From contig NZ_BOMB01000044.1 in assembly GCF_016861975.1 (NCBI RefSeq), positions 1-64,000 on the forward strand: a stretch of 64,000 nt of DNA, read 5' to 3'. The DNA is from Actinocatenispora rupis. Its GTDB lineage: Bacteria > Actinomycetota > Actinomycetes > Mycobacteriales > Micromonosporaceae. The notes beneath the pieces were generated by a model. It was not told where the DNA came from. It worked only from the letters and a program-made list of their open reading frames with translations, and searched no databases. Numbering within the stretch: the first letter of the stretch is position 1; each line of letters starts with the position of its first letter. A program made the position numbers and the translations under genes. This document shows positions 2,454-57,944 of the stretch, in pieces.

Positions 2454-2490
2454 CGGCCGTTCGGCTTGCGTTACCGGGGACGAACGGCCC
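2454..2490. promoter_or_regulatory. Two DosR-like boxes between divergent cytochrome b and CBS genes
   Basis: GGGACGAACGGCCC at 2477-2490 is one of the clearest boxes in the window and resembles the mycobacterial GGGAC-N4-GNCCC core. A weaker copy, CGGCCGTTCGGCTT at 2454-2467, lies 23 bases away centre to centre. The pair sits in the 327-base divergent gap (2362-2688), about 95-130 bases from the minus-strand start at 2361. Nothing else is recognised in that gap. Confidence 0.5.
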
Positions 2491-2688
2491 GTCGACGCGG
2501 ACGGCAGGGCACGTACCTCACGTCAGGCGCGCAGGCTATCCGCGCCGCGGGGCCGACCGGCGTCGAGTACGGGACCTCTGGCACTTCGTCGTCGCCGGCA
2601 ACGCGCCCGACCATGGACGGGCACCGGTGGTGCGGTGTCCCCGCCCGGGCGTCACGTACGCCCGCAGGTACGGCCCCGGGAGGCGGCA

Positions 2689-3363
2689 ATGGGGTGGATG
2701 CGTGTCGACGCGGTGATGACGAGCGCCGTGCTGCTGCTGACGACCGACACGCCGTACCGGCGGATCGTCGAGTTGTTCGCCGAACGCGGCATATCGGGTG
2801 CACCGGTGGTCGCTTCGACCGGTGTCGTCCTGGGTGTGGTGTCGGAGACCGACCTGTTGGCCGGGGTCGCCGAGTCCGGAGACCGCGCACCGCGGCGGCG
2901 GTTGCTGCACAGGCACGCCGCCGACGCCGGCGGGGTGGACGCGGTGGGCGCTCGGACCGCGCGCGACCTGATGACCTTCCCGGCGCTGGTCGTCGCGCCG
3001 GAGGCGGCGGTCGCCGAGGCGGCCCGCATCATGATCGACAACCACATCAACCGGCTACCGGTGGTGAACGGGCAGGGCCGCGTGGCGGGCATCGTGACGC
3101 GCGGCGACCTGCTGCGTGCCTTCCGCCGGACCGACGAGGCGATCCGTACCGAGATCGTCGACGACGTGTTCCGGCTCGTCTTGCGGGTCGGTCCACCGGA
3201 CGTGGACGTACGGGTCCGCGCGGGCCTCGCCACCCTGACCGGGCAACTGTCCGAGGCTGGCGACATCGACCGGGCCGTACGGCTGGTGCGGAACGTCGAC
3301 GGCGTCACCGGCGTCGTCAACGACCTGACGTACCAGGGCGGCGACCGACGGGCGACGGGGTGA
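2689..3363 (+). CDS. CBS-CBS-BON domain protein
   Basis: This 224-residue protein has a CBS pair: the first repeat spans about residues 5-60 (GVVSETDLL near its end), and the second about 85-145 (GIVTRGDLLRAF). A BON domain follows, ending in a GVTGVVNDLTY strand. CBS pairs bind adenosyl ligands; BON domains often contact membranes or phospholipids. The ATG at 2689 has GGGAGGCGG just upstream and is preferred over an in-frame upstream ATG at 2635. The Hrp1 protein of the mycobacterial DosR regulon is also a CBS-pair protein. A second gene of the same architecture lies at 56334. Confidence 0.88.
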   Translation: MGWMRVDAVMTSAVLLLTTDTPYRRIVELFAERGISGAPVVASTGVVLGVVSETDLLAGVAESGDRAPRRRLLHRHAADAGGVDAVGARTARDLMTFPALVVAPEAAVAEAARIMIDNHINRLPVVNGQGRVAGIVTRGDLLRAFRRTDEAIRTEIVDDVFRLVLRVGPPDVDVRVRAGLATLTGQLSEAGDIDRAVRLVRNVDGVTGVVNDLTYQGGDRRATG

Positions 3364-3500
3364 CACCGGGCGCCGTCGTGGTGGACGACACGTCGGGCGC
3401 CGCGGGCGTACTCGACGGGCGCCGGGCCGCGGGGTGCCCGTCGACCGGAAATACGCCGTCCGTACGGCCACATGGGCCCCACGACCGGCCCGGGCAACAG

Positions 3501-3514
3501 GGGCCGTCCGGCCC
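3501..3514. promoter_or_regulatory. DosR-like box, GGGCCGTCCGGCCC
   Basis: A near-perfect palindrome located 50 bases upstream of the phosphoribosyltransferase ATG at 3564. It has the GGGCC-N4-GGCCC form of the other boxes. A promoter here would serve 3564-5456. Confidence 0.45.
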
Positions 3515-3563
3515 TCCCCCGGGCCACCGTACGGGCCGCAGAGTGGGGCGCGGGGTGGTTGGC

Positions 3564-4202
3564 ATGTTCCAGGACCGGGCGCAGGGCGGCCGGATGCTCG
3601 CGCACCGGCTGTCCGGGGTGTGCGTGGACGAGGCGGTCGTCCTGGGGATCACGCGCGGCGGGGTGCCGGTCGCGCGGGAGGTGTCCCGGCTCCTGACGAT
3701 CCCGATGGACGTGCTGGTCGTCCGCCGGGTGACACCGGCGGACCGGCGGCTGACGCTCGGGGCGGTTGCCGAGACCGGTGAGCCCCAGCTGCGCCATGCG
3801 ATCCACCGGTTCGGGCCGGACCAGCTCGTGGAGTTCGTCCGGTGCGCCGAGGCACAGGTCTCGCGCGAGGTCGCCGTCTACCGGATGCGGCACGCGCCCC
3901 TACCGCTGGTCGACCGTACCGCGATCCTCGTGGACGACGGTGTGGTCACCTCCGCCACCGCCCGGGTGGCGTGCCGGCTCGCACGCAGCCGCGGCGCGCG
4001 GCGGGTCGTGTTCGCGGCGCCGGTGATCCCGGCCGATGCGGTCGCCGCGCTCTCCGATCTCGCCGACGACCTGCCGCGCGCGGTGACGCCCCCTCGGGCG
4101 ACAGCCGTGCGCGACTGGTACGTCGACTTCCCGGCGGTGACCGACGCCGACGTACTCGGCCTGCTCGGTCCGGTCGACGAACCCGCCACGGCGGGGCGGT
4201 AG
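3564..4202 (+). CDS. Phosphoribosyltransferase-like protein of the dormancy-regulon type
   Basis: This 212-residue protein shows the type I phosphoribosyltransferase fold: an early GITRGGVPVA strand-loop (residues about 30-39) and the PRPP-binding loop ILVDDGVVTSAT (about residues 117-128). The family (COG1926) includes Rv0571c and part of Rv2030c of the mycobacterial DosR regulon; the natural substrate is not established. The loop reads VTSAT where many members have ATGAT, so catalysis is not certain. ATG at 3564 is chosen; a GTG at 3555 is in frame. The stop is six bases from the next start, so the stress protein gene is probably co-translated. Confidence 0.85.
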   Translation: MFQDRAQGGRMLAHRLSGVCVDEAVVLGITRGGVPVAREVSRLLTIPMDVLVVRRVTPADRRLTLGAVAETGEPQLRHAIHRFGPDQLVEFVRCAEAQVSREVAVYRMRHAPLPLVDRTAILVDDGVVTSATARVACRLARSRGARRVVFAAPVIPADAVAALSDLADDLPRAVTPPRATAVRDWYVDFPAVTDADVLGLLGPVDEPATAGR

Positions 4203-4207
4203 CGGCG

Positions 4208-5065
4208 ATGGACGACGCGTCGGTTCACCGCAACACGGTCGTGGTGGGTGTCGACGGCACCGGTTGGGCGGCGCTGGACTGGGCCGCCCGGTACGCCTCG
4301 GTCACCGGCGCGCGGCTGCTGGTCTGCGTGGCCCAGCCGTACGAGGATCGGCTGTCGCAGGAGGCGCTGGACGCGGCCGAGGAGGTTCTGGCCACGGCCC
4401 GCGACCGGGCGTCCCGCTGGCTGCCGCCGACCCGGCTCGATCCGTGTCTCCGGCACGGGGATCCGGCCACCGAACTCGCCGAGGCCGCGCGCGGCGCAGA
4501 CATGGTGGTGGTCGGTTCTCCCGGGCGGATCGGCTGGCCGGAGCGGGTGCTGGGGCCACCCGTGGTGTCGGTCGTCGCCCGCGCCCGCGCACGGGCGGCG
4601 GTGGTACGGCCGGACCGGGACGGCCCGCCCGGACCGTACGCCGGGCACGTGGTCGTCGGTGTGGACCTGTCGGCGGGCGGGGACGCCGCCCTGCGGTTCG
4701 CGTTCGAGTACGCGGCGGCGCGGCGGCTGCCCCTGGCGGCGGTGCGGGTCGCCACGGACGGCGGCGGCGAGGACTACTGGTTCGACGAACGGATGCTGGA
4801 GACGCACTTCGCCGCGGTACCCGGTTCGATGAGCCTCGTCGCCGAGCGGGTGGAGCGGTTGCGTCACCGGTTCCCCGAGGTGATGGTCAAGCTCGCCGTG
4901 TCGCGGTCCGATGATCCGGGCACCGGCCTGCTGCGCGCCGCCAGCGGCGCGCAGCTGCTCGCGATCGGCCAGCGGGACGCCGATCCGGGCCACGACCCGC
5001 TCGGCCCGGTTGCCCTGACCGTCCTGTTGGACGCGCCCTGCCCGGTCGCGGTCCTGCGTCGGTGA
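4208..5065 (+). CDS. Tandem universal stress protein with degenerate ATP motifs
   Basis: A 285-residue protein with two UspA domains (about residues 8-138 and 147-285), each starting with a VVVGVD strand. The usual G-2X-G-9X-G(S/T) ATP loop is altered in both halves: the first reads VGSPGRIGWPERVLGPP and the second IGQRDADPGHDPLGP. The other three tandem stress proteins in this window keep at least one clean motif. It follows the phosphoribosyltransferase gene by five bases. Universal stress proteins are major members of hypoxia regulons; this copy may be a non-ATP-binding sensor or partner, which is inference. Confidence 0.9.
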   Translation: MDDASVHRNTVVVGVDGTGWAALDWAARYASVTGARLLVCVAQPYEDRLSQEALDAAEEVLATARDRASRWLPPTRLDPCLRHGDPATELAEAARGADMVVVGSPGRIGWPERVLGPPVVSVVARARARAAVVRPDRDGPPGPYAGHVVVGVDLSAGGDAALRFAFEYAAARRLPLAAVRVATDGGGEDYWFDERMLETHFAAVPGSMSLVAERVERLRHRFPEVMVKLAVSRSDDPGTGLLRAASGAQLLAIGQRDADPGHDPLGPVALTVLLDAPCPVAVLRR

Positions 5066-5123
5066 CGACCCCTCGGCGACCGACACGGGGCGCCGGCGGT
5101 ACGGATGGGAGGCGGGAAGCGAC

Positions 5124-5456
5124 ATGACCAGGTACCGACGGGCCGCCCTCGTGGCGCTGCCACTGCTGCTACTCGCGGGATGCGCGGCCGGGCCGAACGA
5201 TGTGGTCGCCACCAGCGGTTCGCAGCCCGCGGGGTTCTGGCTGGGTCTCTGGCAGGGCCTCATCAGCCCCGTCACCTTCCTCGTGTCGCTGTTCAACGAC
5301 CACGTGAACATCTACGAGGTCCACAACAACGGCAACTGGTACAACTTCGGCTTCATGCTGGGGATCTCGACCGTCTTCAGCGCGCTGGCCCGGCCGGCGG
5401 CGGTGGCGACCGGTCGCCGGCGCGAACGCCGCCGCAACCACCGCCCGGACCGCTGA
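5124..5456 (+). CDS. Small putative lipoprotein with membrane segments
   Basis: This 110-residue protein starts with a charged n-region, a hydrophobic stretch and an LLAGC lipobox (Cys about residue 20), so it is probably a lipoprotein processed by signal peptidase II. Two further hydrophobic segments follow, around PAGFWLGLWQGLISPVTFLV and NFGFMLGISTVF, with an HNNGNWYNFG linker and a basic tail. The function is unknown to me. It lies 58 bases after the stress protein on the same strand and ends nine bases from a convergent gene, so it closes the 3564-5456 unit. Confidence 0.75.
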   Translation: MTRYRRAALVALPLLLLAGCAAGPNDVVATSGSQPAGFWLGLWQGLISPVTFLVSLFNDHVNIYEVHNNGNWYNFGFMLGISTVFSALARPAAVATGRRRERRRNHRPDR

Positions 5457-5465: not shown

Positions 5466-8147
5466 TCAGACGCCGTGCAGCACCCGCCGGTACGGGTCGG
5501 GATCGTACGTCGGCGGCCCCAGTCGTACCTTGGCGTCCACGACGGTCAGGCCGGTCGGGGTGACCACGACCGGGTTGAGGTCGATCTCGGTCGCCTCCGA
5601 CGCGTGCGTGGCGAGCCACGACAACCGCAGCAGCAGGTCCTCGACGGCCGCCGTGTCGACGCGGGGCGACCCCCGGTAGCCGGTGAGCAGTGGCGCGGTA
5701 CGCAGGGCACGCCACATCCCGGCCGCGTCCCGGTCGGTCAGCGGCAGCAGGTGCAGGACCCGGTCGCCGAGCAGTTCCGTCACGGTTCCCCCGGCGCCGA
5801 GCAGGACCACGGGCCCGAACAGCGGATCGTGCCGGAGCCCGGCGATCAGCTCCATCCCGGGCGCGGCCATCGCCTGTACCAGTACCCGACCGTCCGCGTC
5901 TCCGTCCGCGGCACGGACGGCACTCGCGGCGGCACGGACCCCGCCGGCGTCGACGATGCCCAGCCGTACGGCGCCGACGTCCGACTTGTGCAGCAGGTGC
6001 GGGTCGGCGGACTTGACCGCCACCGGGTACCCGATCGACTCGGCGGCGCGCACCGCCCGGTCCGCAGGCACCACCTGGCCCGTTGCCAGCGGTACGCCGA
6101 GGGCGGTGAGCAGGCGGGTCGCCGTGTCCTGGTCGAACCAGTCGGCGGCACCCCCGTCGTGCGCGCGCTCGACGGCGGCGCGTACTGCTGCCGCGTCGAT
6201 TCCCGGCGGGGTGACGGCCCGCCCGACTGGCGTGCGGCGCCACCGGGCGTACCGACAGGCGCGGCCGAGCGCGCGGACGGCGCGTTCGGGTGACACGTAG
6301 ACGGGTACCCGGCGGTTGCCGACACAGGCGGGGGCGTCGTCGGCACCGACCAGGACGACGGCGGCCGGCAGGTCGGGAGCGGTGTCGAGAGCTGCCGCGA
6401 CCGCGGCGAGCAGCGTGCACGGGTGGTTGCCCCGCAACGCGATGAGTCCGACGACGAGGCAGTCGACCTCTCCGCTCCGGGCGAGCGTCCGTACCGCGTC
6501 GGACAGCGTGTCGGCAGGTATGTCCGCGCCGAGGTCGACCGGGTTGGTGAGGCCGCCGGGGTGGGTCGGGCCGTCGAGCGTGTCCACGAGCGTCCCGGAC
6601 AGTTCCGGTACGGACAGCCCGGCGGCCTCGGCGGCGTCCGCGGCGAGGATGTTCAACCCGCCGGCGTTTCCGATGACGCCGAGCCGGTCGCCGGTGGGCG
6701 CCGGCTGGTCGACGAGCAGCCGCGCGGCGTCGAGCAGTTCGTCGGGGTCATCCGTGCGGATCACGCCGGCCTGCGCGAAGAGGCTGTCGACGATCGCGTC
6801 CGGGGTCGCCGCGGCGGCGGTGTGTGCGGCTCCGGCGCGCCGGCCGCCGACCGAGCGGCCGCTCTTGACCACGAGAACGGGTTTGCGCCGGCCCGTCTGG
6901 CGAGCAAGGCGGGCGAACCGCGCCGGGTTGCCGAACGATTCGAGGTACAGCGCGACCGCCTGGGTCCGCGCGTCGTCGTACCAGAAGCTGAGCAGGTCGT
7001 TGCTGGAGACGTCGATCTTGTTGCCGAGGGACACGAACGCCGAGACGCCGATCCCCGCGCGCGACGCACCGTCCAACAGTGCGACGCCGACGGCGCCCGA
7101 CTGCGACGCGACAGCGAGCCCACCGGTATCGGGTCGGTGCGGGCCGAACGACGCGTCGAGGCGTACCGCGGGGTCGGTGTTGATCACGCCGAGGCAGTTC
7201 GGGCCGACGATGCGGACCCCGGCGCGGCGCGCGGCGCGCAGCAGGTCGGACTGGCGCCCGCCGTCCCCGGACTCGCCGAATCCGGAGCCGAGTACGACCG
7301 CGGCACCGGCGCCGCGCTGCGCGGCCTCCGCGAGCGCCCGCGCCGCCGCTCTCGCCGGGACGGCGAGAACCGCGAGGTCGACGGGCTCCGGGAGGTCGAG
7401 CGCGGACCGGTACGCGGGGACGCCCGCCACGTCGTGCCGTGCGTGCGGGTTCACCGCGTACACGCGGCCGGTGAATCCGGCGTCGAGCAGGGACCGCAGC
7501 ACGTCGTGCCCGACGCCGTCGGTACGGCCGGCGCCGATCACGGCGACCGCCGCGGGGGCGAACAGCGGACGCAGCGAGCTGCGTTGCGCGGCGCGGTCCC
7601 GGGCATCCATCGCCGCGAGTGCCGCGTCACCGGGCAGCGTCGCGATCTGTATGTGGACGACACCCGCCGGCTCGTGGTCCAGGCCGGCGGTCAGTCCCTG
7701 GGACACCTTGAGCATGCCGGTGTTGGCGGCCAGTACGTCGCCGTCGAGGGTGTCGATGCCGTGCCGGCGAGCTTCTGCCGAAAGTTCCTCCAGCAGCAGC
7801 GTTCCGACGCCGCGTCCGTGCCAGTCATCGGCGACCAGGACGGCCAACTCCGCGCGGTCCGGTGCCAACCGCTCGTAGGACGCCACGCCCAGCAGGTCGC
7901 CGCACTGTTCCGCGACGAGGACCGCGTGGTCACCGTCCGGAGGCCGGCTCAGCCGTGCGATCTCGGCGTCGACCGCCCCGGGCGCGTTGCTGAAGAACCG
8001 CAGGTACCGGTTGTACGAGGACGTGCCGCGCAGCAACGCACCGATGTCCGGTGCATCGTGCGGGCGGCCCGGACGGATCCGTACGATGTGGCCGTCCGCG
8101 CTCAGTGCGTCCACGCCGCCGCCGGACGTGGGGCCGTCACCGGTCAC
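5466..8147 (-). CDS. GNAT acetyltransferase fused to ADP-forming acyl-CoA synthetase
   Basis: This 893-residue fusion has an N-terminal GNAT domain (about 20-170, acetyl-CoA loop HGRGVGT at 110-116). The CoA-binding Rossmann domain follows (from about 198, VAVIGAG), then a succinyl-CoA-ligase-like domain ([15 protein letters not shown]; conserved GAAHTAAA His stretch) and a C-terminal ATP-grasp domain (from about 650). The synthetase half belongs to the NDP-forming acetyl-CoA synthetase family. Proteins with the same parts, such as bacterial Pat/PatZ, act as lysine acetyltransferases that sense acetyl-CoA; those have GNAT at the C-terminus, here it is at the N-terminus. Its ATG overlaps the DUF1876 stop by four bases, so the two are coupled. 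Confidence 0.9.
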
Positions 8148-8410
8148 CGTTCGAGCCGTACACGTTCGTGCGTGACCGCCTCGATGTCGGTCGCCGCCGA
8201 GAACAGCAACCGGTGCCCCAGGTCGTTGAGCGCGCGAGCCACCGCGAGCTCGTCGCCGATCTCCGGAACGTCCTTGTCCGCCGGGTTCATGTGGGCACGA
8301 CCGATGCCGACGAGGGAGGCGGCCTCACCCGTCTGCAACCGGGCCTCGGCGTACGTGCTGCCCTCGTGCTCGTCGACGAAGATGTCGACCCGCCAACGCT
8401 TCTCGTGCAT
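8144..8410 (-). CDS. DUF1876 (dsRBD-fold, Rv1738-like) protein
   Basis: This 88-residue protein matches the DUF1876 family: [15 protein letters not shown] at the start, a GxGxAHMNPAD segment, and a C-terminal helix and strand. Mycobacterial members Rv1738 (DosR-regulated) and Rv2632c have a fold similar to ribosome hibernation factors. An excellent GAGGAGG ribosome site sits upstream of the ATG at 8410. It is first in a two-gene operon with the acetyltransferase fusion, and a DosR-like box lies 55 bases upstream. A role in silencing translation during dormancy is inferred from the family. Confidence 0.9.
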
Positions 8411-8464
8411 CACGACCTCCTCACCGCGTACCGCCAGTCCACCGCGGCCGGATTCGCCGGGACA

Positions 8465-8478
8465 GGGCCGAACGGTCC
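8465..8478. promoter_or_regulatory. DosR-like box, GGGCCGAACGGTCC
   Basis: A strong box match in the 150-base divergent gap between the DUF1876 operon (start 8410, minus) and the DoxX/P-ATPase operon (start 8561, plus). It could control both directions. Together with flanking bases it forms a longer imperfect palindrome (GGGAC at 8459-8463 and GTCCC at 8475-8479). Confidence 0.55.
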
Positions 8479-8560
8479 CGCGGTGACCGGCCGGTCGGCA
8501 CTGTGGCGTCGCATGCCGGAGGCGCTGACTGTCGGTGAGCCCTATCGAGGAGGTTGGACC

Positions 8561-9121
8561 ATGAGTGCGGCGACGCATGGCCAGTCCGGCGCGGCCGTCC
8601 CCGTTCCGAGGACGAGCACCCGAGCGATCAGCTCCGCGACCGTCGGCCGGTACACGATGGCGGGGTTGCGGCTCGGGATGGGATGGATCTTCCTGTGGGC
8701 GTTCCTGGACAAGCTCTTCGGCCTCAGCCACGACACCCTGACGAAGTCCGCCTGGATCCACGGCGGTAGCCCCACCAAGGGATTCCTGTCGACAGTGGCG
8801 ACCGGGCCGTTCGCCGGCTTCTACCACAGCATCGCCGGCGCGGGCTGGGCCGACTGGCTGTTCATGCTCGCCCTGGCCGGCATCGGTGTGGCCCTGATGG
8901 CCGGGATCGGGATGCGCATCGCGACCATCGCCGGTGTCGTACTGCTGGTGATGATGTGGAGCGTGGTGCTGCCGCCGGCCGGCAACCCGTTCCTGGACGA
9001 CCACCTCATCTACGCCGGTCTGCTGGTCGCCCTGCTGGCACTGCACGCCGGTGACACGCTCGGCCTGGGCCGCTGGTGGTCGCATACGCCGCTGGTCCGG
9101 CGCGTGCCGTGGCTGCGGTGA
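8561..9121 (+). CDS. DoxX-family membrane protein
   Basis: A 186-residue protein with about four membrane helices and the DoxX/DoxD-type N-terminal pattern ([19 protein letters not shown]). DoxD-like proteins act in thiosulfate:quinone reductases; mycobacterial relatives join membrane oxidoreductase complexes handling oxidative stress and sulfur. The ATG at 8561 follows a GAGGAGG ribosome site. The stop overlaps the GTG of the P-type ATPase by four bases (GTGA), so both are translated together. The electron partner is not evident. Confidence 0.87.
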
Positions 9122-11856
9122 GCGCGCCGGAGGACCGTGCCGATCCGAGTACACCGGACCCGCGTGAGGCGCGCACGCTCCTCTACCGGGACCTGCGGGC
9201 CATCCCGACCGGGCTGTCCGGCCGGGAGGCCCGCCGTCGGCTGGTCTCTTACGGCCGCAACGAACTGCGGCGCCGTGGCGGTCGCCGATGGCCGCAGGAA
9301 CTGCGCGCCCAGCTCACCCAACCGCTGGCGCTGTTGCTGGCGGTCGCGGCGATTCTGGCCTGGCTGAGCGGCAGCCCGCTGCTCGCCGGTGCGATCGGCG
9401 CGGTGGTCGCCCTCAACGCCACGTTCGCGTTCGTCCAGGAGGTCGAGGCCGAACGCGCGGTCGAGGCGCTCGCCGCGTACCTGCCGTCGCTCGCCCGGGT
9501 CGTACGCGACGGTGAGCATGTCAGCGTCGACGCGGCCGAGCTCGTGCCGGGCGACGTGCTGCTGATCGACGAGGGCGACCGGATCTGCGCCGACGGCAGG
9601 CTCATCGACGGTGAGCTGTTCGTCGACGCCTCCACGCTCACCGGCGAATCGGTGCCGGTGCGCCGGTCCGCCGAACTGGTCGACACCACCGGTCCGGTTC
9701 TCGCCGCCCGCGACCTGGTCTTCAGCGGTACCTCGTGCACCGAGGGCGAGGCACGGGCGCTCGTCACCGCGACCGGGATGCACACCGAGATCGGCCGGAT
9801 CGCGGCCCTGTCGGAGCGGGTGGCGCGCGCCGACAGCCCGCTGGAGCGCCAGGTGAAGCGGGTCGCCTGGCTCATCGCCGCGGTCGCCGTCGGCGCCGGG
9901 TTGGCGTTCCTGCCGGCGGGGCTGGCCGCCGGCCTTGGCTTGGCGGCTGCGATCAGCTTCTCCGTCGGGCTGATCGTGGCGAACGTCCCGGAGGGCCTGC
10001 TGCCGACCATCACGCTCGCCCTCGCGGTCGGGGTACGCGACCTCGCTCGGCGCGGCGCGGTCGTCAAGCGGCTGTCGGCGGTGGAGACACTGGGCTCCAC
10101 CACGGTCATCTGCACCGACAAGACCGGCACTCTGACCGAGAACCGGATGCGGGCGGTACGACTGTGGACTCCGGCCGGGGGAACGGTCGAACCGGGCACC
10201 ACGGACCTGCCGGACGACGTGCGCCTGCTGGCCCTGTCCGCTGCGGCATGCACGACCGCCGAACCCGGCCGGGGCGACCCGACCGAGACCGCCCTCGTCG
10301 ACCTGGCGCGCCGGCTCGGCATCGACACGGCGGGCAGGGACGCCAGGCGGCGTGGCCTGTTCGGCTTCGAGCCACATCTGAAGCGTATGTCCACTGTGGA
10401 CATCGAGGGCTCCGGTGAACTCGCGGTGCACGCGAAGGGGGCACCCGAGTCGATCGTTCCACTGTGCACGGGCATCGGCGCGGACGGCGCGCCGTTCCGG
10501 GCCGACGATCGCACCCGGATCGCCGAACGGGTCGAATCCTTTGCGCGACAAGGTCTCCGGGTACTCGCGGTCGCCCGGCGAGGCGTGATCGCGGCGCCCG
10601 TGGATCGTGGCCACGCCGAGCGGGACCTCCGGCTGCTCGGTCTCGTGGCGCTGCTGGACCCGCCCCGCTCGGGAGTGGCGGAGGCCATCCGGGACGCACA
10701 CCAGGCCGGCATCCGCGTACACGTGGTCACCGGGGACAACGGCACGACCGCCGCCGAGATCGCCCGGCAGGTCGGCATCGGCGCGGACCGGGTCGTCCCC
10801 GGCGACCGGCTCGACGCCATGCCCGAGGTCGATCTGGACCGGCTGCTGGCCGAGCCCGGCGAGATCGTGTTCGCCCGTACGTCACCGGAGGCCAAGCTGC
10901 GCATCGCCGACGCCCTGCGGTCGACCGGCCAGGTCGTCGCGATGACCGGCGACGGCGTCAACGACGCACCGGCGCTGCACCGGGCGGACATCGGCGTCGC
11001 CATGGGCCGGTCCGGCACGGACGTGGCGCGGGAGGCCGCCACCATGGTCCTCACCGACGACGACTTCGGCACCATCGTCGCCGCGGTGGCCGCCGGGCGC
11101 CGCGTCTACGACAACATCCGCAAGTTCATCGTGTACATCTTCACGCACGCGGTACCGGAAGTGGTGCCGTTCCTGGTGTTCGCGCTCAGCGGCGGGGCGG
11201 TCCCGCTGGGCCTGACGGTGCTGCAGATCCTCGCGATCGACCTCGGCACCGACATCCTGCCCGCGCTGGCGCTGGGACGCGAGCCGGCCGAGCCGGGGCT
11301 GATGGCGCGACCGCCGCGGCCGCGGCACGAGAACGTGGTCCGACCGGCGATGCTGGCGCGCGCGTGGGGATTCCTCGGCGTCATCTCCGCGGCGCTGAGC
11401 TTCGGCGGTTTCCTGTGGGTCCTGCACCGTGCCGGTTGGCAGCCCGGGGACCCGACGGGCGTGGGCAGCCCGTTGCACCACGCGTACCAGCAGGCGACGA
11501 CGATGGCGTGGCTGGGCATCGTGGCGTGCCAGTGCGGTACCGCGATGGCCGTGCGGACCAGTCGGGCCGCGCTGCGGCAGATCGGTGTGCTGAGCAACCG
11601 CCGTCTGCTCGCCGGGCTCGGCGTCGGGGTCGCCGCCGCGCTCGCCGCGAGCTACCTGCCGCCGGTGCAGGCAGTACTCGGCACGGCAGCGCTGCCGCCG
11701 GTCTGTCTGTTCCTGCTGGCGACGTTCCCGTTCGTGGTGTGGTGTGCCGACGAGCTGCGCCGCGCCGCGGTTCGGCACCGTGACGACCGTCGGGCCGCCG
11801 GTCGAAGCACGCCCGAGCGGCGGGCACCGGCCAGCACCGGGGCCTCGTTGCGCTGA
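9118..11856 (+). CDS. P2-type cation-transporting ATPase, CtpF-like
   Basis: This 912-residue enzyme has all P-type ATPase landmarks: actuator TGES (residues 175-178), PEGLLPT in the ion-binding helix, phosphorylation motif DKTGTLT with Asp334, and the hinge TGDGVNDAP (610-618). It has the P2 layout of Ca2+ and Na+/K+ pumps, with an N-terminal cytosolic segment and six C-terminal helices, and no heavy-metal CXXC domain. CtpF (Rv1997) of the mycobacterial DosR regulon belongs to this class. The GTG at 9118 is preferred because it overlaps the DoxX stop; GTGs at 9076 and 9109 are alternatives. Ca2+ as substrate is inferred. Confidence 0.92.
10389..10401. repeat. Iterated palindrome GTCCACTGTGGAC (copy 1)
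   Basis: A perfect 13-bp palindrome with an odd central base, inside the P-type ATPase gene. Five other exact 11-bp cores (TCCACWGTGGA) occur in the window. Confidence 0.6.
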
Positions 11857-13202: not shown

Positions 13203-14063
13203 TCACCCGGCGGAATCGGAGGTGTCCGGGACCACGGCCACGGGGCACGGCGCATGGCGTACCAGCGCCTGGCTGGTGGAACCGAGCAGCAGTCCGCGGA
13301 AGCCGCCCCGGCCGCGGGCACCGACCACGGCGAGCTGGGCGTCGGCGGCCCGGTCGATCAGGACAGCTGCCGGATGCCCACGCGCGTCGTAGCCATCGAG
13401 GCGCACCCCGGGGTACTCCTTGTGCCACCGGCGGAGCATCTCGTAGATGCGTTCGGCCTCGGACTCCTCGTCCGGATCACCGAGGTCCGGCGGCGCACCG
13501 CCGGCCACCGGCCAGGCGTGCACCGCGATGAGCGGTACGTCGCGGCGCGCCGCCTCCGCGAACGCCCAGCAGGCGGCCCGGTCCGAGCCGGGCGGATCCA
13601 CTCCCAGAACGACCGGCGCATCCGCGGGGATCGCCGCGTTCGGGCGTACGACGACCACGGGGCAGGGGGCGTGCTCGGCGAGTTGGACGCTGACCGATCC
13701 GGCCAGCAGTCCCGTGAACCCGCCCAGGCCTCGGTTGCCGACGACGATCGCCGCCGCGCCGCGCCCGGCGGCCAACAGGCATGCGGCCGGCGCCCCCGAC
13801 TCCACCCTCCCCTCAACCGGCACGCCGGCGCTGCGTACCCGGGCGACCGCCTCGGCGACCATTCGGCGGACGGTCTCCCGGGGGTCGTACCGGGCGGGAA
13901 CGCCGGTGAGGGGAACACCCATGACCGGCCACTGGAAGGCGTGCACGACGAGTACCGACGCGCGGAGGCGCGACGCCTCGTCGGCCGCCCAGTCGAGGGC
14001 CGCCTCGCTCCAGCCTGATCCATCGGCACCCACGACGATGGCCGGCTTGCCGCTCCCACTCAT
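13203..14063 (-). CDS. Tandem universal stress protein
   Basis: A 286-residue protein with two UspA domains (about 7-140 and 150-280). Both keep the ATP loop: VGNRGLGGFTGLLAGSVS in the first and VGARGRGGFRGLLLGSTS in the second, each followed by the APCPVxVV strand. It is probably an ATP-binding dimer like Rv2623. A GGGGGGAC site precedes the ATG. It follows the STAS gene by 27 bases in a run of minus-strand genes from 16434 to 11877. Confidence 0.93.
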   Translation of the reverse strand: MSGSGKPAIVVGADGSGWSEAALDWAADEASRLRASVLVVHAFQWPVMGVPLTGVPARYDPRETVRRMVAEAVARVRSAGVPVEGRVESGAPAACLLAAGRGAAAIVVGNRGLGGFTGLLAGSVSVQLAEHAPCPVVVVRPNAAIPADAPVVLGVDPPGSDRAACWAFAEAARRDVPLIAVHAWPVAGGAPPDLGDPDEESEAERIYEMLRRWHKEYPGVRLDGYDARGHPAAVLIDRAADAQLAVVGARGRGGFRGLLLGSTSQALVRHAPCPVAVVPDTSDSAG

Positions 14064-14090
14064 GACCGTCCCCCCGACGTGTCGACCCGG

Positions 14091-14489
14091 TCAGATGCGG
14101 AACTGTGTGGCGTCGTCGATCCGGCCGTCCTCGCCGCCGGCGTACGCGGCAGGCAGGTCCGGGTACACCGCGATGGTCGACGGCGGGTCGGCCAGGAACA
14201 GCGCGGTCCGCACCAGCGGCTGCGGGTTGGCCAGTCGCACGTCGTAGCCAAGCCCTGTCAAGGCTCCGACCGTGGCCACGAGGGCGTCGACACCGGCGGC
14301 GGTGGCCAGGTACAGCCGGGACAGGTCCATGAGCAGGATCCGGCCGTGCGGCCCCGGCGGCCGTGCGGCCACAGCCATGAGAGTTTCCGCGTCGTCCCCG
14401 GACAACCGGCCCACCAGAGCGATGACGGTGCCGTGGAACCAGTCCCGCCGTTCGACGTCGAGTCCGGCGACCGGTTGTCGCGTGAACAT
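14091..14489 (-). CDS. STAS-domain protein lacking the phospho-serine
   Basis: This 132-residue protein has a STAS fold: VIALVGRLSG near residues 22-31 and LLMDLSRLYLATAAGVDAL near 52-70. In anti-anti-sigma factors this second motif carries a phosphorylatable serine in DSSG; here the matching residues are T63-A64-A65-G66, so classic kinase control by phosphorylation is unlikely. It lies between an alcohol dehydrogenase and a stress protein gene, 14 bases after the former. It may be a scaffold in stress signalling; the partner is unknown. An ATG at 14489 with GGAG upstream is used. Confidence 0.8.
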   Translation of the reverse strand: MFTRQPVAGLDVERRDWFHGTVIALVGRLSGDDAETLMAVAARPPGPHGRILLMDLSRLYLATAAGVDALVATVGALTGLGYDVRLANPQPLVRTALFLADPPSTIAVYPDLPAAYAGGEDGRIDDATQFRI

Positions 14490-14503
14490 CTGCACCACTC
14501 CAC

Positions 14504-15535
14504 TCAGGTCCGGGTCAGGGTGACCTTCAGCGCACCGCTGGAGGCCGGGTCGGCGAACAGGTCGTACGCCTCGGTCATGTCCGTCAGGGCGAACCGGTGA
14601 GTCACCAGGTCCGCCGGGTCGATCAGCCGGCCGGACAGCATCCGCAGCAGCTCCGGGGTCGACCAGGTGTCGACCAGCCCGGTGGTGATCGTGACGTCGG
14701 AGATCCACAGGCTCTCCAGGTGCAACGCGGCAGGCGCCCCGTGCACACCGACGTTGGCGACGTGCCCGCCGGGGCGTACCAGTCGGGTGCACAGCTCGAA
14801 GGCCTCGGGCCGGCCGACGGCTTCGATCACGACGTCGGCGCCCAGACCGTCGCCGAGGCGCCGCAGCTCGTCCTCCGCGTCCTCGGGAGCGACGACGGAG
14901 TCGGCGATGCGGTCCGCGGCGACTCTACGGGACGCGGCCGGGTCGATGGCGATCAGATGGGACGGCGAGTACAGCCGCGAGCACAGCAGCGCGGCCAGTC
15001 CGATCGGTCCAGCGCCGACCACCGCCACCACCGAACCGGGCCGAACCCTGCCGTTGTGCACGCCCACCTCGTACGAGGTGGGCATGATGTCGGCGAACAG
15101 CACCGCGACCTCGTCGGGAACCTCCGCCGGCAGCCGGTGCGTGGACAGGTCCGCGAACGGGATCCGCGCGTACTCCGCCTGTACCCCGTCGATCAGGTGC
15201 CCGAGGATCCATCCGCCGCCGTTGCGACACTGGCCGTACCTGCCGCGCCGGCAGTAGTCGCAGCTGCCACAGCCGGAGATGCACGACGCGAGGACCCGGT
15301 CACCCTCGGCCAGACCGGTCGCGGCGCCCGCGTCGACGACCGTACCGACGGCCTCGTGGCCGAGGATGCGCCCCGGCTTGACCTCCGGTACGTCGCCCTT
15401 GAGGATGTGCAGGTCGGTGCCGCAGATGGTGGCCGTGTCGACCCGGATCACCGCATCCCGCGGTCCCTCGACCGCCGGGTCCGGCGCCGTGGTCCACGCC
15501 TTCCCGCCGTTGCCTTGGTACACCAGGGCTTTCAC
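14504..15535 (-). CDS. Zinc-dependent alcohol dehydrogenase
   Basis: A 343-residue medium-chain dehydrogenase. Catalytic zinc ligands are visible in CGTDLHILKG and GHEAVGTVV; the structural zinc cluster is CISGCGSCDYCRRGRYGQC; the nucleotide loop is VVGAGPIGLAAL. FADIMPTSYEVGV places it with bacterial zinc alcohol dehydrogenases acting on aldehydes or secondary alcohols. The GTG at 15535 overlaps the upstream stress protein stop (GTGA). In a hypoxia context it could regenerate NAD+ by fermentation; the substrate is not known. Confidence 0.9.
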   Translation of the reverse strand: MKALVYQGNGGKAWTTAPDPAVEGPRDAVIRVDTATICGTDLHILKGDVPEVKPGRILGHEAVGTVVDAGAATGLAEGDRVLASCISGCGSCDYCRRGRYGQCRNGGGWILGHLIDGVQAEYARIPFADLSTHRLPAEVPDEVAVLFADIMPTSYEVGVHNGRVRPGSVVAVVGAGPIGLAALLCSRLYSPSHLIAIDPAASRRVAADRIADSVVAPEDAEDELRRLGDGLGADVVIEAVGRPEAFELCTRLVRPGGHVANVGVHGAPAALHLESLWISDVTITTGLVDTWSTPELLRMLSGRLIDPADLVTHRFALTDMTEAYDLFADPASSGALKVTLTRT

Positions 15536-16434
15536 GATGGGACCCCCGTTCCGTTGCGCTGATGGACGACGGCGACCGGGCAGGTGGCCCGGTGCAGGAC
15601 CGCGCGGCTGGTGGAGCCGAGCACGAGGCTGGCGAACCCGCCGCGGCCGCGGGATCCGACGACGATCAGCTGCGCGGTCCGCCCGTACGCGAGGATCTGG
15701 TCCACCGGCGTGCCGTGCGCCAGCACCGGCCGCACCGCCACGTCCGGGTACTTCTCGCGCCAGCCGGCGAGCGCCTCGGAGAGCAGTACGTGTTCGGTGT
15801 CGGCGACCTCGTCCGGGTCGTAGTAGTCCGGGGCGCGGGTGAACGGGTCGGCGCTGCCCGGTTCCATCCAGGCGTGCACGGCGACCAGGTCGGTGTGCCG
15901 CCAGCTCGCCTCCTCGAACGCGAACCCGAGTGCGGCCTGGCCACCGGCCGAGCCGTCCACGCCGACCAGCATCGGTCCGCGCGTGTCCGGGAAGCCCGGT
16001 CCGTCGGGAATCACCAGTACCGGCCCGGACGCGTGCGCCGCGACCTGCGTGCTGACCGACCCGAGCACCATGCCGGACATGCCGCCGAGTCCACGCTGAC
16101 CGACGACGGTCAGCTCGGCGCCGGCCGATGCGGCCACCAGGACCGCGGCGGCCGCGCCCCGCTCGGTCCGCCCGGACACCCGTAGGCCGGGAAACCTGGT
16201 GCGCAGCAGTACCTCCTGCTCCTGCAACCGGCGCTGTGCCTCGGCGCGCGCCGGCCCCACCGGATCGACCGCTTCGCCGTCGTCGAGGAAGTCGTACCCG
16301 GGCTGGTCGAAGACGCTGACGAGCAGTACGGGCCGGTGACGTCGCGCCCCGACCGCCCCCGCCCATGCCCCCGCACGCAGGCTCGCGGTGGATCCGTCCA
16401 CCCCGACCAGGATCGGCCTGTTCGGCATCACCAT
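15532..16434 (-). CDS. Tandem universal stress protein
   Basis: A 300-residue protein with two UspA domains, each beginning with an ILVGVDGS-type strand. Both ATP loops are intact: VGQRGLGGMSGMVLGSVS and VGSRGRGGFASLVLGSTS. It is first in a five-gene run (stress protein, alcohol dehydrogenase, STAS, stress protein, M50 protease), and the box at 16482 lies about 50 bases upstream of its ATG. A GGGGGAGG ribosome site precedes the start. Confidence 0.93.
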   Translation of the reverse strand: MVMPNRPILVGVDGSTASLRAGAWAGAVGARRHRPVLLVSVFDQPGYDFLDDGEAVDPVGPARAEAQRRLQEQEVLLRTRFPGLRVSGRTERGAAAAVLVAASAGAELTVVGQRGLGGMSGMVLGSVSTQVAAHASGPVLVIPDGPGFPDTRGPMLVGVDGSAGGQAALGFAFEEASWRHTDLVAVHAWMEPGSADPFTRAPDYYDPDEVADTEHVLLSEALAGWREKYPDVAVRPVLAHGTPVDQILAYGRTAQLIVVGSRGRGGFASLVLGSTSRAVLHRATCPVAVVHQRNGTGVPS

Positions 16435-16481
16435 CGTGTACCTCCCCCACCCAGCTCAGCGGCTGAGCGCCACCCCACCCA

Positions 16482-16495
16482 GGGCCGAACGGACC
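16482..16495. promoter_or_regulatory. DosR-like box, GGGCCGAACGGACC
   Basis: It shares its first 11 bases and 13 of 14 overall with the box at 8465. It lies 48 bases upstream of the stress protein ATG at 16434, a good position for activating the whole 16434-11877 operon. Confidence 0.55.
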
Positions 16496-16517
16496 GACCG
16501 GGCAGGACATGCGAACC

Positions 16518-17098: not shown

Positions 17099-17965
17099 TC
17101 AGGCGATGCGTACGGCGCGGGTGAAACGCCTGCCGGACCGTACGACAGCCACCGGCCCGGCTGCGTGATGCAGGACGTGGCGGCTGACCGAGCCCAGCAG
17201 CAGCGCCTCCACGGCGCCGCGGCCACGCGCACCGACGATCAGGATGTCGGCGTCGTGCGCCATCCGGACGAGGGTGCGGCCCGCGGGGGCGTGCACGACC
17301 CGCTGGGTGACTGCGACGTCGGTGTAGGTCGCCGACCAGCCCGACAGGGACTCGGCGAGCAGCCGCCGCTCCTCGTCGGCCACCTCGTCCGCGTTGTACA
17401 CCAAGGGCTGCATGTCGCCGGGCTTGGATCTGCCCGGTGCGGTCCAGGTGAGTACGGCAGTCAGCGGGAGGTGTCGAAGGTCCGCCTCCTCGAACGCGAA
17501 GCCCACGGCCGGGTCGGAGAGCACGGATGCGTCGGTACCGACGAGAATCCGGCGTGCGGACGGTGGAGCGGCCGGGGCCGTCGGCACGACGACGACCGGG
17601 CAGGCCGCGTGCATCGCGACCCGCAGGCTCGTCGACCCCAGCGGTCCGGCACCCGAATGGGTACCGACCACCAGCATGATCGCCTCCTGCGACAGGCCGG
17701 CGAGTACCGGTCCGGGATGGCCGAACTCCACCGTGCCCGACATGGCCACACCGGGTGCAACTGCCTGGGCGCTTCTCACCGCCGCCGACACCTCCGCGGT
17801 ACCGTCGCGTTCCGGCTCGACACGGTCGAAGGCGTGCACGATCCGCAGCGGCCGTCGGCGTACCATCGCCTCCCGTGCGGCCCACCGTACGGCCGCGGTC
17901 GCGGTCGGCGATCCGTCCGTGCCGACCAGGATCGGCGCCCCGGCCTTCCCCAGCACCGGTTCCAC
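17099..17965 (-). CDS. Tandem universal stress protein
   Basis: A 288-residue protein with two UspA domains. The second ATP loop is intact (VGARGRGAVEALLLGSVS); the first is altered (VGTHSGAGPLGSTSLR). The GTG at 17965 has AGAGGCG upstream. It is the last gene of a flavodoxin, SHOCT protein, stress protein run. With 4208, 13203 and 15532 this makes four tandem stress proteins in 13 kb. Confidence 0.92.
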   Translation of the reverse strand: MEPVLGKAGAPILVGTDGSPTATAAVRWAAREAMVRRRPLRIVHAFDRVEPERDGTAEVSAAVRSAQAVAPGVAMSGTVEFGHPGPVLAGLSQEAIMLVVGTHSGAGPLGSTSLRVAMHAACPVVVVPTAPAAPPSARRILVGTDASVLSDPAVGFAFEEADLRHLPLTAVLTWTAPGRSKPGDMQPLVYNADEVADEERRLLAESLSGWSATYTDVAVTQRVVHAPAGRTLVRMAHDADILIVGARGRGAVEALLLGSVSRHVLHHAAGPVAVVRSGRRFTRAVRIA

Positions 17966-18037
17966 CGCCTCTCGTGTCGCGGTCGGCGTTGTGCCCCACC
18001 GGCTCCGGCGGAGACGCCGCCGTCCAGCGCCGCAGGT

Positions 18038-18298
18038 TCAGCCGCCGCCACCCGGCGCCCGCCCGTGCAGAACGTCCAGGCGGTGTCGGTACTCCTGTTC
18101 GTCGATCTCGCCGCGGGCGAAGCGCTCGGCGAGGACCCGCTCGGGCGTCGAGCCGTCGTGATGCGCGGCCCGGCCGCGTACCAGCATCCGCACCAGCACA
18201 GCGACGGCGGCAAGCACCAGCGCCCAGAACAACACCATCGTCACGCCCATCAGGCCGTAGCCCCAGGGGCCCATTCCCGGGCCGTACCAGTGCATCAT
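18038..18298 (-). CDS. SHOCT-domain membrane protein
   Basis: An 86-residue protein with a Met/Gly/Trp-rich start (MMHWYGPGMGPWGYG), one membrane helix (about 17-40) and a C-terminal SHOCT motif (PERVLAERFARGEIDEQEYRHRLDVL in outline, about 53-78). SHOCT domains are short oligomerisation modules often found at the ends of membrane proteins. It lies between the flavodoxin and stress protein genes on the same strand. Its role is unknown. Confidence 0.85.
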   Translation of the reverse strand: MMHWYGPGMGPWGYGLMGVTMVLFWALVLAAVAVLVRMLVRGRAAHHDGSTPERVLAERFARGEIDEQEYRHRLDVLHGRAPGGGG

Positions 18299-18362
18299 CG
18301 TGTGCTCCCCCGAGGTTGCCGCGGGTTGCGGGCCCCAGCACGGGAAAGCGTGCCGGGACGGG

Positions 18363-18881
18363 TCATCCGGCCCGGCTCACCGTCGCCGCCATCGCGTCGG
18401 CCAGGGCCGCGCCCCACGCGCGGGCGCGGTCGCGTTCGCCGTCGTCGAGCGGCCCCTGCGTACCGGTGACGTAGAAGCTGCGCGGCGGTGCGATGACCCG
18501 CGCACCGCTGCGCCGGAGCCGGCGCCGGATCGCACCGGACGCCGAGCCCGGCAGCCGAGTACGGGCGTGCGTGTCGAACGACGCGGCGAGCGTGCCGTGC
18601 ATCGGCCCCGCCACCGCCAACCACTCCCGTACCCCCCGCTCGCCGACCGCCGCCTTCTCGTCCTGCCGCGCCGCGGCGCTGCGGGTACCCCGGCGGCTCA
18701 TGCCGAACGCGTGCGTCGGGCCGCCCACCACGACCAGGTCGATGTCGGCGGGCAGCGGCGCCGGCGCGTCGGCCACCGGGACCGCGCGTACCCCGACCCG
18801 TGCACCGAGCCCTTCGGCGATCGCCTCGGCGACCAGCGCGGTGTTACCGAACATCGATTCGTACACCACCAGGGCCTGCAT
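18363..18881 (-). CDS. Flavodoxin-domain protein
   Basis: A 172-residue flavodoxin-like protein. The FMN phosphate loop is VYESMFGNT (residues 5-13) and VVVGGPTHAFGMS forms the second FMN loop. It is longer than electron-carrier flavodoxins and resembles actinobacterial flavodoxin-fold stress proteins. The ATG at 18881 has GGGAGGAACG upstream; an upstream in-frame ATG/GTG at 18905 lacks such a site. It is divergent from PPK2 with a DosR-like box between them. Confidence 0.88.
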   Translation of the reverse strand: MQALVVYESMFGNTALVAEAIAEGLGARVGVRAVPVADAPAPLPADIDLVVVGGPTHAFGMSRRGTRSAAARQDEKAAVGERGVREWLAVAGPMHGTLAASFDTHARTRLPGSASGAIRRRLRRSGARVIAPPRSFYVTGTQGPLDDGERDRARAWGAALADAMAATVSRAG

Positions 18882-18940
18882 CGTTCCTCCCTCGTCGGTT
18901 CTCACGCCTCCAGTGGACGTCGGTGGCGGGGATTCCGGCA

Positions 18941-55149: not shown

Positions 55150-55176
55150 CGAGAGTGCGGGCCTAGGCTCGGGTAC

Positions 55177-56076: not shown

Positions 56077-56239
56077 CACCGGACGCCGCCGAGCCCGCCC
56101 GTGCCGACACTCGCCGGCGCCAGGCGCGCGACCACGGCCATTGCGGCACAACGCCGAGCCCCACCGCGTCGCGTCCCGCATGCTCCCTCGCCTGCGTCCC
56201 GCTCGGCACGTGGTCGCCGCGATACCGCGTGCCCCCAAG

Positions 56240-56253
56240 GGGCCGTTGCTCCC
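56240..56253. promoter_or_regulatory. DosR-like box, GGGCCGTTGCTCCC
   Basis: It has the GGGCC-GTTN-NTCCC layout and lies 81 bases before the CBS protein ATG at 56334. It is the first sign that the dormancy set resumes here. Confidence 0.4.
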
Positions 56254-56333
56254 GAGAACAGGGGCGGATCGACCCGTCCGGAAACGGCACGGCCCCGAGC
56301 AGACTGGGACCGTCTCCGTTCGGGAGGTACGTC

Positions 56334-56933
56334 ATGCGCGCGAGCGACGCGATGAGCAGGCCGGTCCACGCGGTCGGTCCCGACGATCCGATCGAGCAGG
56401 CCGCGGCCATGCTCATCGGTTACGAGGTCACGGCGGCTCCGGTTCTCGACAGTTACGGCCGGATCGTGGGGATCGTCAGCGAGGGAGATCTTCTCCGGCA
56501 CCGGGTGCCGACCGATCCGACGCTGCACATGCGGCGCCATGCGGACGGCACGGACGCCGATCGCCCGCACACCGTCCGCGACGTGATGACCAGCAAGGTC
56601 GTCACCACACCGCCGGAGGCAGACCTCGCCGACGTTGCTGCCACGATGCTCGACCGCGACGTACGAAGCGTGCCGGTGGTGGACGACGACGAACTCGTCG
56701 GCATCGTCAGCCGGCGAGACATCGTACGCAGCATGGTGCGGACCGACGCCGTGCTCCAGGCCGACGCCCAGCACCGCCTCGACGAGTACGCGGGCTCGCC
56801 GCGGTGGACCGTCACCGTCCACCGGGCCGAGGCGACGGTCACCGGCACGTTCCGCGACGAGGTGGAGCGACAGATCGCGACGGTACTGACCCGAACGGTT
56901 CCCGGCATCTGCGCGGCACACGTCCCTGCATGA
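56334..56933 (+). CDS. CBS-CBS protein with short BON-like tail
   Basis: A 199-residue protein with a CBS pair (GIVSEGDLLRHR near 50-60, GIVSRRDIVRSM near 125-136) and a C-terminal BON-like strand-helix (WTVTVHRAEATVTGTFRDEVERQ). It is a second copy of the architecture at 2689, with a shorter linker. GGGAGG precedes the ATG at 56334. CBS pairs sense AMP/ATP and could report energy state in dormancy. Confidence 0.9.
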   Translation: MRASDAMSRPVHAVGPDDPIEQAAAMLIGYEVTAAPVLDSYGRIVGIVSEGDLLRHRVPTDPTLHMRRHADGTDADRPHTVRDVMTSKVVTTPPEADLADVAATMLDRDVRSVPVVDDDELVGIVSRRDIVRSMVRTDAVLQADAQHRLDEYAGSPRWTVTVHRAEATVTGTFRDEVERQIATVLTRTVPGICAAHVPA

Positions 56934-57093
56934 GATCCGCCCCGGCCAACCTGCGCGGGCGGTGGACGCCTGGAGCGATGGCCGGACGACATCTTCGGTC
57001 CGCACCTGACCGGTGTTGTGTCCTCGTGCCGACGACGCGGCGAGGCGGCGAACGGGCCCGGCGCAGCCGGCCAGCAACCTGTGCGGACCCGCC

Positions 57094-57714
57094 CTACGTG
57101 TCCGCGGAACCCGGTCGGCGCCGGCGCACGTCGCGGCACCGGCCGGCCCGCCACTCCCCCGCCCAGTCGGCGTAACGGCGCCGATCGAGCAGCCACCGCA
57201 CGCTCCACCAGAACAGCAGGGCGACGCTGGCGGTGCCGAAGGGCACCGCGAGACCGGCGCCGATCCCCTCGCTGACGATTCGCGTGGCGGACTCGGGCGC
57301 CGGCAGCGGCCGGCCTGTACGGTCCACCCGGATCGGTACCGTGTCTCCGCGGTGCCGGCCGGGCGCGACCCGGATGGTTCCGGTGTAGGTGTGTCCGCCG
57401 AGGCTCCAGCGTGCCCGGACCGGGACGTCGGTCGGTGGTTGGTCGCTCGCCGAGGACGCCCACGGGTCGGCGAGCAGGACCGCCGCGGTCGGGTGTCCCG
57501 CGGCGGCGAGCCGGGTCGCGGTGCGTTGCCCTCCAGCAACGACCGCCCTCCCGGTGATCACCCCGGCCGGGATCGCGGCGAGGCAGGCCACCACGACGAC
57601 CGCGAGGACCGCCCCCTCGATCCGGTCGCTCGCACGGCGGAGCGGGTTTCGGCCGATGCCGACCAGCCGGCCGAACCGAGCAAGTCGGGCAGCCGGCCCG
57701 GACAGTACGCTCAT
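57094..57714 (-). CDS. Rv1733c-family membrane protein
   Basis: A 206-residue protein: N-terminal GRNPLRRASDRIEG before a first helix (about 35-58), an extracytoplasmic domain with SLGGHTYTGTIRVAPGRHRGDTVPIRVD-like strands, then a second helix (about 155-180). RNPLRRxxDRxE and the RVDxxGRPLPAP segment mark the Rv1733c family; Rv1733c is a DosR-regulated membrane antigen in mycobacteria. GGGAGG precedes the ATG. It is divergent from the alcohol dehydrogenase gene. Function is unknown. Confidence 0.87.
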   Translation of the reverse strand: MSVLSGPAARLARFGRLVGIGRNPLRRASDRIEGAVLAVVVVACLAAIPAGVITGRAVVAGGQRTATRLAAAGHPTAAVLLADPWASSASDQPPTDVPVRARWSLGGHTYTGTIRVAPGRHRGDTVPIRVDRTGRPLPAPESATRIVSEGIGAGLAVPFGTASVALLFWWSVRWLLDRRRYADWAGEWRAGRCRDVRRRRPGSADT

Positions 57715-57874
57715 CGCACCTCCCGGACATGCGTGCGTCGAACGGGACTCCACCGCTCCACCTGCCCGTGCCAGCCGTGAGCCGTCACCGGACGCGATGT
57801 CGGGGCCGTCGGACGCCCCCTCACCGTCACCCCGGTCTGGTGGCCCGCACAGCGGCCCAACCGCCCGGAACTGG

Positions 57875-57944
57875 AGGCCGTTCAGCCCGAAACCCGGGTA
57901 CGCGTCCGGGTCACAGGTCCCGTCCGCAACGGGCGGTTCAGCCC
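57875..57944. promoter_or_regulatory. Two DosR-like boxes between Rv1733c-family and alcohol dehydrogenase genes
   Basis: AGGCCGTTCAGCCC (57875-57888) and GGGCGGTTCAGCCC (57931-57944) match each other in 12 of 14 positions and share the centre GTTC with other boxes. They lie 91 and 35 bases before the dehydrogenase ATG at 57980. Confidence 0.45.

Follow-up and report, generated by a model that had tools for sequence, protein, structure and literature searches.

Candidate OsdR/DevR-type operator boxes before a stress-gene cluster of Actinocatenispora rupis

A set of palindromic boxes precedes stress-type genes in a stretch of 64,000 nucleotides from the actinobacterium Actinocatenispora rupis (bases 1-64,000 of contig C44, NZ_BOMB01000044.1, which has 98,687 bases; hereafter the window, with a GC content of 73% in a genome of 7.83 Mb). 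The strong boxes are very probably operators of a response regulator of the DevR/DosR/OsdR type, by analogy with the binding of OsdR and DevR. They lie in the gaps between genes and are clustered, the genome encodes three DevR-like regulators, and the boxes are partly conserved within the genus. Boxes of this kind have already been described in Streptomyces, and the window provides a new example in another genome, not a new switch. Only one feature looks unexpected, namely an apparently imported regulator pair with a sensor in which the heme histidine is missing.

Urem and others (PMC5069765) give OsdR (SCO0204) of Streptomyces coelicolor a 16-bp palindromic consensus, AGGGCCGATCGGCCCT, with a GNNC centre, and place it upstream of osdR orthologues in 12 Streptomyces species. 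They also describe gel shifts of OsdR in vitro at several predicted sites, with binding lowered by mutation. The centres in Table 1 of that report, most of whose sites are themselves predictions, include GATC, GGTC, GACC and GAAC, and the centres of the window boxes resemble them. OsdR sites stand upstream of universal stress protein (USP) genes, zinc dehydrogenase genes and a nitroreductase gene, several of them divergent and many around the regulator gene (PMC5069765). The window shares with this system a palindrome of the AGGGCCGATCGGCCCT type with a variable centre, before USP, zinc dehydrogenase and nitroreductase genes. The original prediction, which proposed a DosR-like box before most dormancy transcription units, had set the GNNC centre against the mycobacterial TWWA centre alone; because the published OsdR consensus has the GNNC centre, it is no new variant.

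Since a literal consensus showed no excess in the window or the genome, a matrix of published sites was used instead. It is strand-symmetric and was built from 25 distinct S. coelicolor OsdR sequences of the same Table 1 (PMC5069765), leaving the window sequences unused. All twelve predicted sequences were located, none of them inside a gene by our own calls, and predicted sites fill matrix ranks 1-8 among all window positions, all eight in gaps. Eight boxes are strong or good and the one at 20420 is moderate; the sites 260, 2454 and 56240 are inseparable from chance. Genes were called with our own codon-usage script, so that starts and distances are approximate. The sites are as follows.

2476..2491: box GGGGACGAACGGCCCG, score 15.3, rank 3; separates a (-) cytochrome b-like unit from a (+) CBS-BON gene
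3500..3515 (+): box GGGGCCGTCCGGCCCT, 17.9, rank 1; centre 56.5 bp 5' of a phosphoribosyltransferase-USP unit
8464..8479: box AGGGCCGAACGGTCCC, 16.0, rank 2; between a (-) Rv2632c-like/CoA-ligase-like unit and a (+) P-type ATPase unit
8487..8502: weaker second box CCGGCCGGTCGGCACT, 9.1; 23 bp from 8464 and absent from the original prediction
16481..16496 (-): box AGGGCCGAACGGACCG, 14.6, rank 4; centre 54.5 bp 5' of a (-) USP/dehydrogenase/USP unit
18940..18955: box AGGGTCGGTCGGCCCG, 11.1, rank 6; between a flavodoxin gene (-) and a polyphosphate kinase 2 gene (+)
20378..20393: box AGGGCCGAACGACCCC, 13.9, rank 5; between a gene without Pfam match (-) and an HSP20 gene (+)
20420..20435 (+): moderate box GGGGACGGACGGCCGA, 9.2, rank 11; centre 48.5 bp 5' of the HSP20 gene
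57874..57889 (+): box GAGGCCGTTCAGCCCG, 9.7, rank 8; centre 98.5 bp 5' of a dehydrogenase-nitroreductase-MBL unit
57930..57945 (+): box CGGGCGGTTCAGCCCT, 10.5, rank 7; centre 42.5 bp 5' of the same unit
56239..56254 (+): weak, doubtful box, 7.5, rank 21; ahead of the CBS gene that starts at 56334; another weak box (7.0) lies at 56261
2453..2468: predicted site 2454, 3.3, rank 119; unsupported
259..274: predicted site 260, 8.5, rank 15; no called gene behind it

The consensus originally proposed, GGGMCGNNCGGNCC, is exact at 2477, 3501, 8465 and 16482 and has one mismatch at 18941, 20379 and 20421 (original numbering, one base inside the boxes listed); 260, 2454, 56240, 57875 and 57931 do not match it within one mismatch. 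The centre lies 38.5-68.5 bp from the nearest called start in seven of the nine good or moderate boxes, and 98.5 bp (57874) and 122.5 bp (2476) from it in the remaining two. Site 260 precedes no called gene. Pairing was borne out at 20378/20420 and 57874/57930, while 2454/2477 is a good box with a poor neighbour. A tandem spacing of 22-23 bp (2453/2476, 8464/8487, 56239/56261) is weak as a general feature, the offsets having been picked after looking: of the 216 positions that lie at 22/23-bp offsets from 57 strong gap boxes, 5 reach a score of 3 (0.6 expected), and several other offsets match or beat these. The weaker second boxes at 22-23 bp from the first in 8464/8487 and 56239/56261 are possibly members of cooperative pairs.

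The strong boxes are confined to gaps, and they were compared with a background sample of 63 stretches (C1:1-600,000, C10:1-420,000 and C12:1-232,000; 1.25 of 7.83 Mb). Within 1-21,000, the 2,146 gap positions contain five sites scoring at least 13 and the 18,839 coding positions contain none; the background has 2 in 155,084 gap positions and 2 in 1,095,971 coding positions. Gaps of this region differ from background gaps with a Fisher p of 1e-8 at a score of at least 13 and of 2e-8 at a score of at least 10, and each background stretch held one gap site of at least 10 at most. The two comparisons that had been suggested with the original prediction, gaps against coding sequence and the cluster against the genome, were thus clear. 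None of 500 palindrome-preserving permuted matrices reached the five gap sites of at least 12 present in 1-21,000 (the highest gave two). Of 1,041 background genes, 20 had a site of at least 10 in the interval that runs from 400 bp upstream of the start to 30 bp inside the gene. The matrix scan gave no site of at least 6 in the gaps of 21,001-55,000.

By our own grouping of the gene calls, 1-21,000 contains 12 units, and the six boxes scoring at least 11 lead ten of them, which start at 2361(-), 2689(+), 3564(+), 8410(-), 8657(+), 16434(-), 18881(-), 18986(+), 20317(-) and 20476(+), at 38.5 to 205.5 bp from the box centres. This agrees with the proposal that a box stands before most dormancy units, and four of the six leading boxes sit between divergent genes, an arrangement that had been described as frequent. 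The unboxed units are an M50 peptidase unit (best site 6.1) and 16518-16805 (3.7). Pfam matches in 1-21,000 comprise a CBS-BON protein, a phosphoribosyltransferase, four USPs, an Rv2632c-like protein, a P-type cation ATPase, an M50 peptidase, a zinc dehydrogenase, a flavodoxin, polyphosphate kinase 2 and HSP20; those at 56-61 kb comprise a CBS protein, a zinc dehydrogenase, a nitroreductase and a beta-CASP metallo-hydrolase. Several of these families (USP, HSP20, CBS, nitroreductase, P-type ATPase and Rv2632c-like) are represented in the Mycobacterium tuberculosis DosR regulon, and the window genes include, by Pfam, the families that we take to be the usual targets in the DevR dormancy regulon. 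The principal genes and units at the boxes are listed below.

2689..3363 (+): CBS-BON protein (Pfam)
3564..5456 (+): unit of phosphoribosyltransferase, USP and small protein (gene calls, Pfam)
5466..8410 (-): Rv2632c-like protein and GNAT/CoA-ligase-like protein (Pfam)
8657..11856 (+): small protein without Pfam match (membrane-like by eye) and P-type cation ATPase
13203..16434 (-): unit of USP, small protein, zinc dehydrogenase and USP
17099..18881 (-): flavodoxin, SHOCT protein and USP
18986..19891 (+): polyphosphate kinase 2
20476..20883 (+): HSP20/alpha-crystallin protein
57980..61653 (+): zinc dehydrogenase, nitroreductase, beta-CASP MBL protein and DUF1918

A second boxed stress cluster is present on contig C32 (L052:7844-12382), where USP, P-type ATPase and CBS-BON genes are accompanied by boxes of 17.8 and 14.6. 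The cytochrome b-like unit of the window (352-2361) includes partners of 59 and 313 residues, and a search of 61 genomes gave relatives of its cytochrome b in 7, its own genome included (E <= 1e-20). When the cytochrome b neighbourhood was used as a syntenic anchor, no gap box of at least 10 was seen around it in genome G003.

A DevR-like regulator of 213 residues is encoded at C44:75416-76057(-), 11.4 kb past the window end, and its best solved relative is DevR (3c3w; E 3e-68). A pyridoxamine-oxidase-like gene and the gene for a GAF-GAF-HisKA_3 kinase lie 5' of it in the same direction, and the stretch with regulator and kinase is C44:75416-77631. Two further DevR-like regulators are encoded on contigs C4 and C31; a DevS-like kinase gene adjoins the regulator gene on C31 and stands one gene away on C4, separated from it by a USP gene. 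All three regulators share 56-60% identity with DevR (3c3w) and carry the recognition helix EKTVKNYVS, identical to that of M. tuberculosis DevR. The box of DevR/DosR in that species is GGGACTWWAGTCCC. The window boxes have its outer GGGnC...GnCCC half sites in common, but they have G..C on either side of the central pair where the mycobacterial box has T..A. The mycobacterial core GGGACTWWAGTCCC itself is absent from the window at up to two mismatches; at three mismatches it occurs in three places, one of which is box 2477.

Genomes of the same genus show related arrangements. In two of three, the orthologue of the C4 regulator is accompanied by gap boxes (16.4 and 12.7 at locus L186; 17.0 and 12.7 at L189), which sit between the devR orthologue and a divergent gene. 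In two loci of one of these two genomes (L183 and L184), gap boxes adjoin Rv2632c-like, USP, HSP20, CBS-BON, nitroreductase-like (a match below the Pfam cut-off) and beta-CASP (MBL) genes, standing in a different order from that in the window. The OsdR-based matrix, the DevR homologues with the DevR helix and these same-genus boxes at devR support the DosR-like reading of the original prediction.

A set of 80 loci, selected solely for the presence of a C44-regulator relative, contained 35 gap sites of at least 12 in 27 loci, against 8 in coding sequence; 40 permuted matrices gave a mean of 4.4 such gap sites, the highest 11. Among gap matches to GGGnC-nnnn-GnCCC in these loci, the centre GAAC/GTTC is commonest (15), followed by CTTC/GAAG (11), and GAAC is missing from the 15 commonest coding centres. 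An identical gap box, CGGGCCGAACGGCCCT, lies about 2 kb 5' of devR in five Amycolatopsis loci and in Prauserella muralis (L208, L210, L211, L213, L215 and L220, near 7,785-7,965).

Several results weigh against operators of the DevR/DosR/OsdR type. No gap site of at least 9 was found in the searched upstream stretches of the three devR genes: the best site directly before such a gene scores 8.6, 150 bp 5' of the C31 gene, the C4 gene and the C44 operon have 3.1 and 6.2 at best, and a site of 11.2 at 380 bp 5' of the C31 gene lies within the neighbouring gene. C31-type regulator loci of the same genus (L188, L191 and L192) have no gap site of at least 8, 53 of the 80 devR loci, including all ten from Lentzea, have none of at least 12, and the Rv2632c-like neighbourhood of the other same-genus genome (L185) has gap sites of just 10.7 and 9.4. 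In positions 64,001-98,687 of C44, the best two sites (13.2 and 12.0) lie inside coding regions, and one site of 10.8 lies in a gap. Neither a common -10 element nor a clear AT peak follows the boxes in 50 box-gene pairs. Ten genes with a USP domain were checked outside the window and one of them has a strong box; two of the ten (on C19 and at C7:190939) encode long proteins that just contain a Usp domain. The literal rules fare poorly as well: exact GGGMCGNNCGGNCC occurs less often in the genome than its reversed control does (86+88, 174, against 133+101, 234), and GGGCCGAACGGCCC at two mismatches is close to its control (318+370, 688, against 316+344, 660).

Some of these results can be set in context. 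In the OsdR system the regulator gene has a box at its promoter, which is not required of operators elsewhere in the regulon. The arrangement here is unlike that of OsdR: the boxed cluster is without a regulator, the nearest being about 55 kb further on, and the genome has three DevR-like regulators, with no gap site of at least 9 found directly before their genes. The proposition that a box follows every USP gene is ruled out by the ten genes checked; the nine without a strong box indicate that the box marks clusters, not a gene family. At one mismatch, GGGCCGAACGGCCC has 45 strand matches genome-wide against 27 for the control, five of the 45 inside the window; its sole exact match in the genome is in a gap between two genes on contig C17 (L043:14654). 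At L185:5309, the gap box of 10.7 lies about 150 bp 5' of a gene that resembles, by eye, window 8657-9121, which likewise has a box (8464) upstream.

The alternative that fares best, although we regard it as improbable, is that the box belongs to another palindrome-binding regulator, such as a different response regulator of the LuxR/NarL type, many of which are present in the genome. The C44 regulator has 45 genome matches, and the lack of sites directly before the organism's own devR genes fits such a regulator. However, just three of the 45 are at least 60% identical to the query (itself included), the other 42 being at most 46% identical, the box fits the OsdR consensus, and a box stands at the devR gene in two same-genus genomes. 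Chance matching in GC-rich DNA, against which the original prediction had cautioned, is less probable still. It fits the GC content of 73%, and the caution was right for the loose rule (GGGMCGNNCGGNCC at up to one mismatch gives 49 matches in the window against 45.5 expected, and 32 of 100 shuffles are as high, a further result unfavourable to the operators) and for 260, 2454 and 56240, which score at background level. Chance stands for these three of the twelve sites, but the gap, background and permutation tests, made with an independent matrix, are strongly contrary for the six best boxes; the clustering and the same-genus genomes also speak against it. The PolS-PolR pair of Microlunatus phosphovorus is likewise a DevS/DevR-like pair in an actinomycete, and PolR is described in PMC6754071 as 76% identical to DevR with a footprint on a direct repeat, GTTCACnnnnnGTTCaC, but there is hardly any likelihood that this repeat is the real recognition sequence here, its 32 matches in the window showing no enrichment over the 40.9 expected.

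If the strong boxes are operators of the DevR/DosR/OsdR type, a dimer of the phosphorylated regulator would bind the roughly palindromic GGGnCGnnCGnCCC site and, once bound, would activate the adjacent, often divergent, stress-survival genes. The targets would be the genes for USPs, CBS-BON, HSP20, the Rv2632c-like protein, the P-type ATPase, polyphosphate kinase 2, flavodoxin and nitroreductase. The trigger would be low oxygen, nitric oxide or a similar stress, sensed via the C4 and C31 kinases, in which the heme-ligand histidine is preserved.

The third kinase differs at this position. The kinases of C4 and C31 retain the histidine of the first GAF domain, which we take to be the heme ligand of DevS, whereas the C44 kinase has a threonine aligned to the histidine of the DevS motif PYHPPMRTF. 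Among 55 DevS-like kinases from one search of the loci, whose cut-off the C44 kinase falls below, 40 have the histidine and 15 lack it, some of the latter alignments being poor; the 15 come from ten Lentzea, one Saccharothrix, Prauserella flavalba, Pseudonocardia dioxanivorans and two Amycolatopsis. Within L203-L235, the histidine is missing from several Pseudonocardiaceae DevS-like kinases near devR but present in close relatives of theirs; L215:8328-10004 (no histidine) and L203:8387-9997 (histidine kept) are an example. The loss of the histidine in Pseudonocardiaceae DevS-like kinases is apparently repeated. No report of DevS-like kinases lacking the heme histidine was found in a thin literature search.

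In a tree of 79 regulators, which leaves out the 15 of 80 loci without a called VKNYVS protein, the C44 regulator groups with Prauserella (99/85), and those of C4 and C31 cluster with sequences from the genus, the C4 regulator with Catellatospora as well. The position of the C44 regulator suggests that it was imported from Pseudonocardiaceae, and the tree points, weakly, to a host in Micromonosporaceae. With the heme-ligand histidine absent from the C44 kinase, the dormancy boxes may receive an input other than oxygen, and the similar losses in the relatives from Lentzea, Saccharothrix, Amycolatopsis and Prauserella suggest recurrent rewiring. We propose, tentatively and as something that may well not hold, that three DevR-type regulators with the same helix share one operator, that the imported one brings a kinase without the heme histidine and with it a non-oxygen input to the boxes, and that such rewiring recurs.

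The dormancy operator of Streptomyces, cast as a matrix, has predictive value in a further lineage of actinobacteria, and the window offers a compact set of promoters for testing that operator. If the pair without the heme histidine does act on these boxes, it would provide a natural test of a new input on a dormancy regulon in which the DNA code is fixed.

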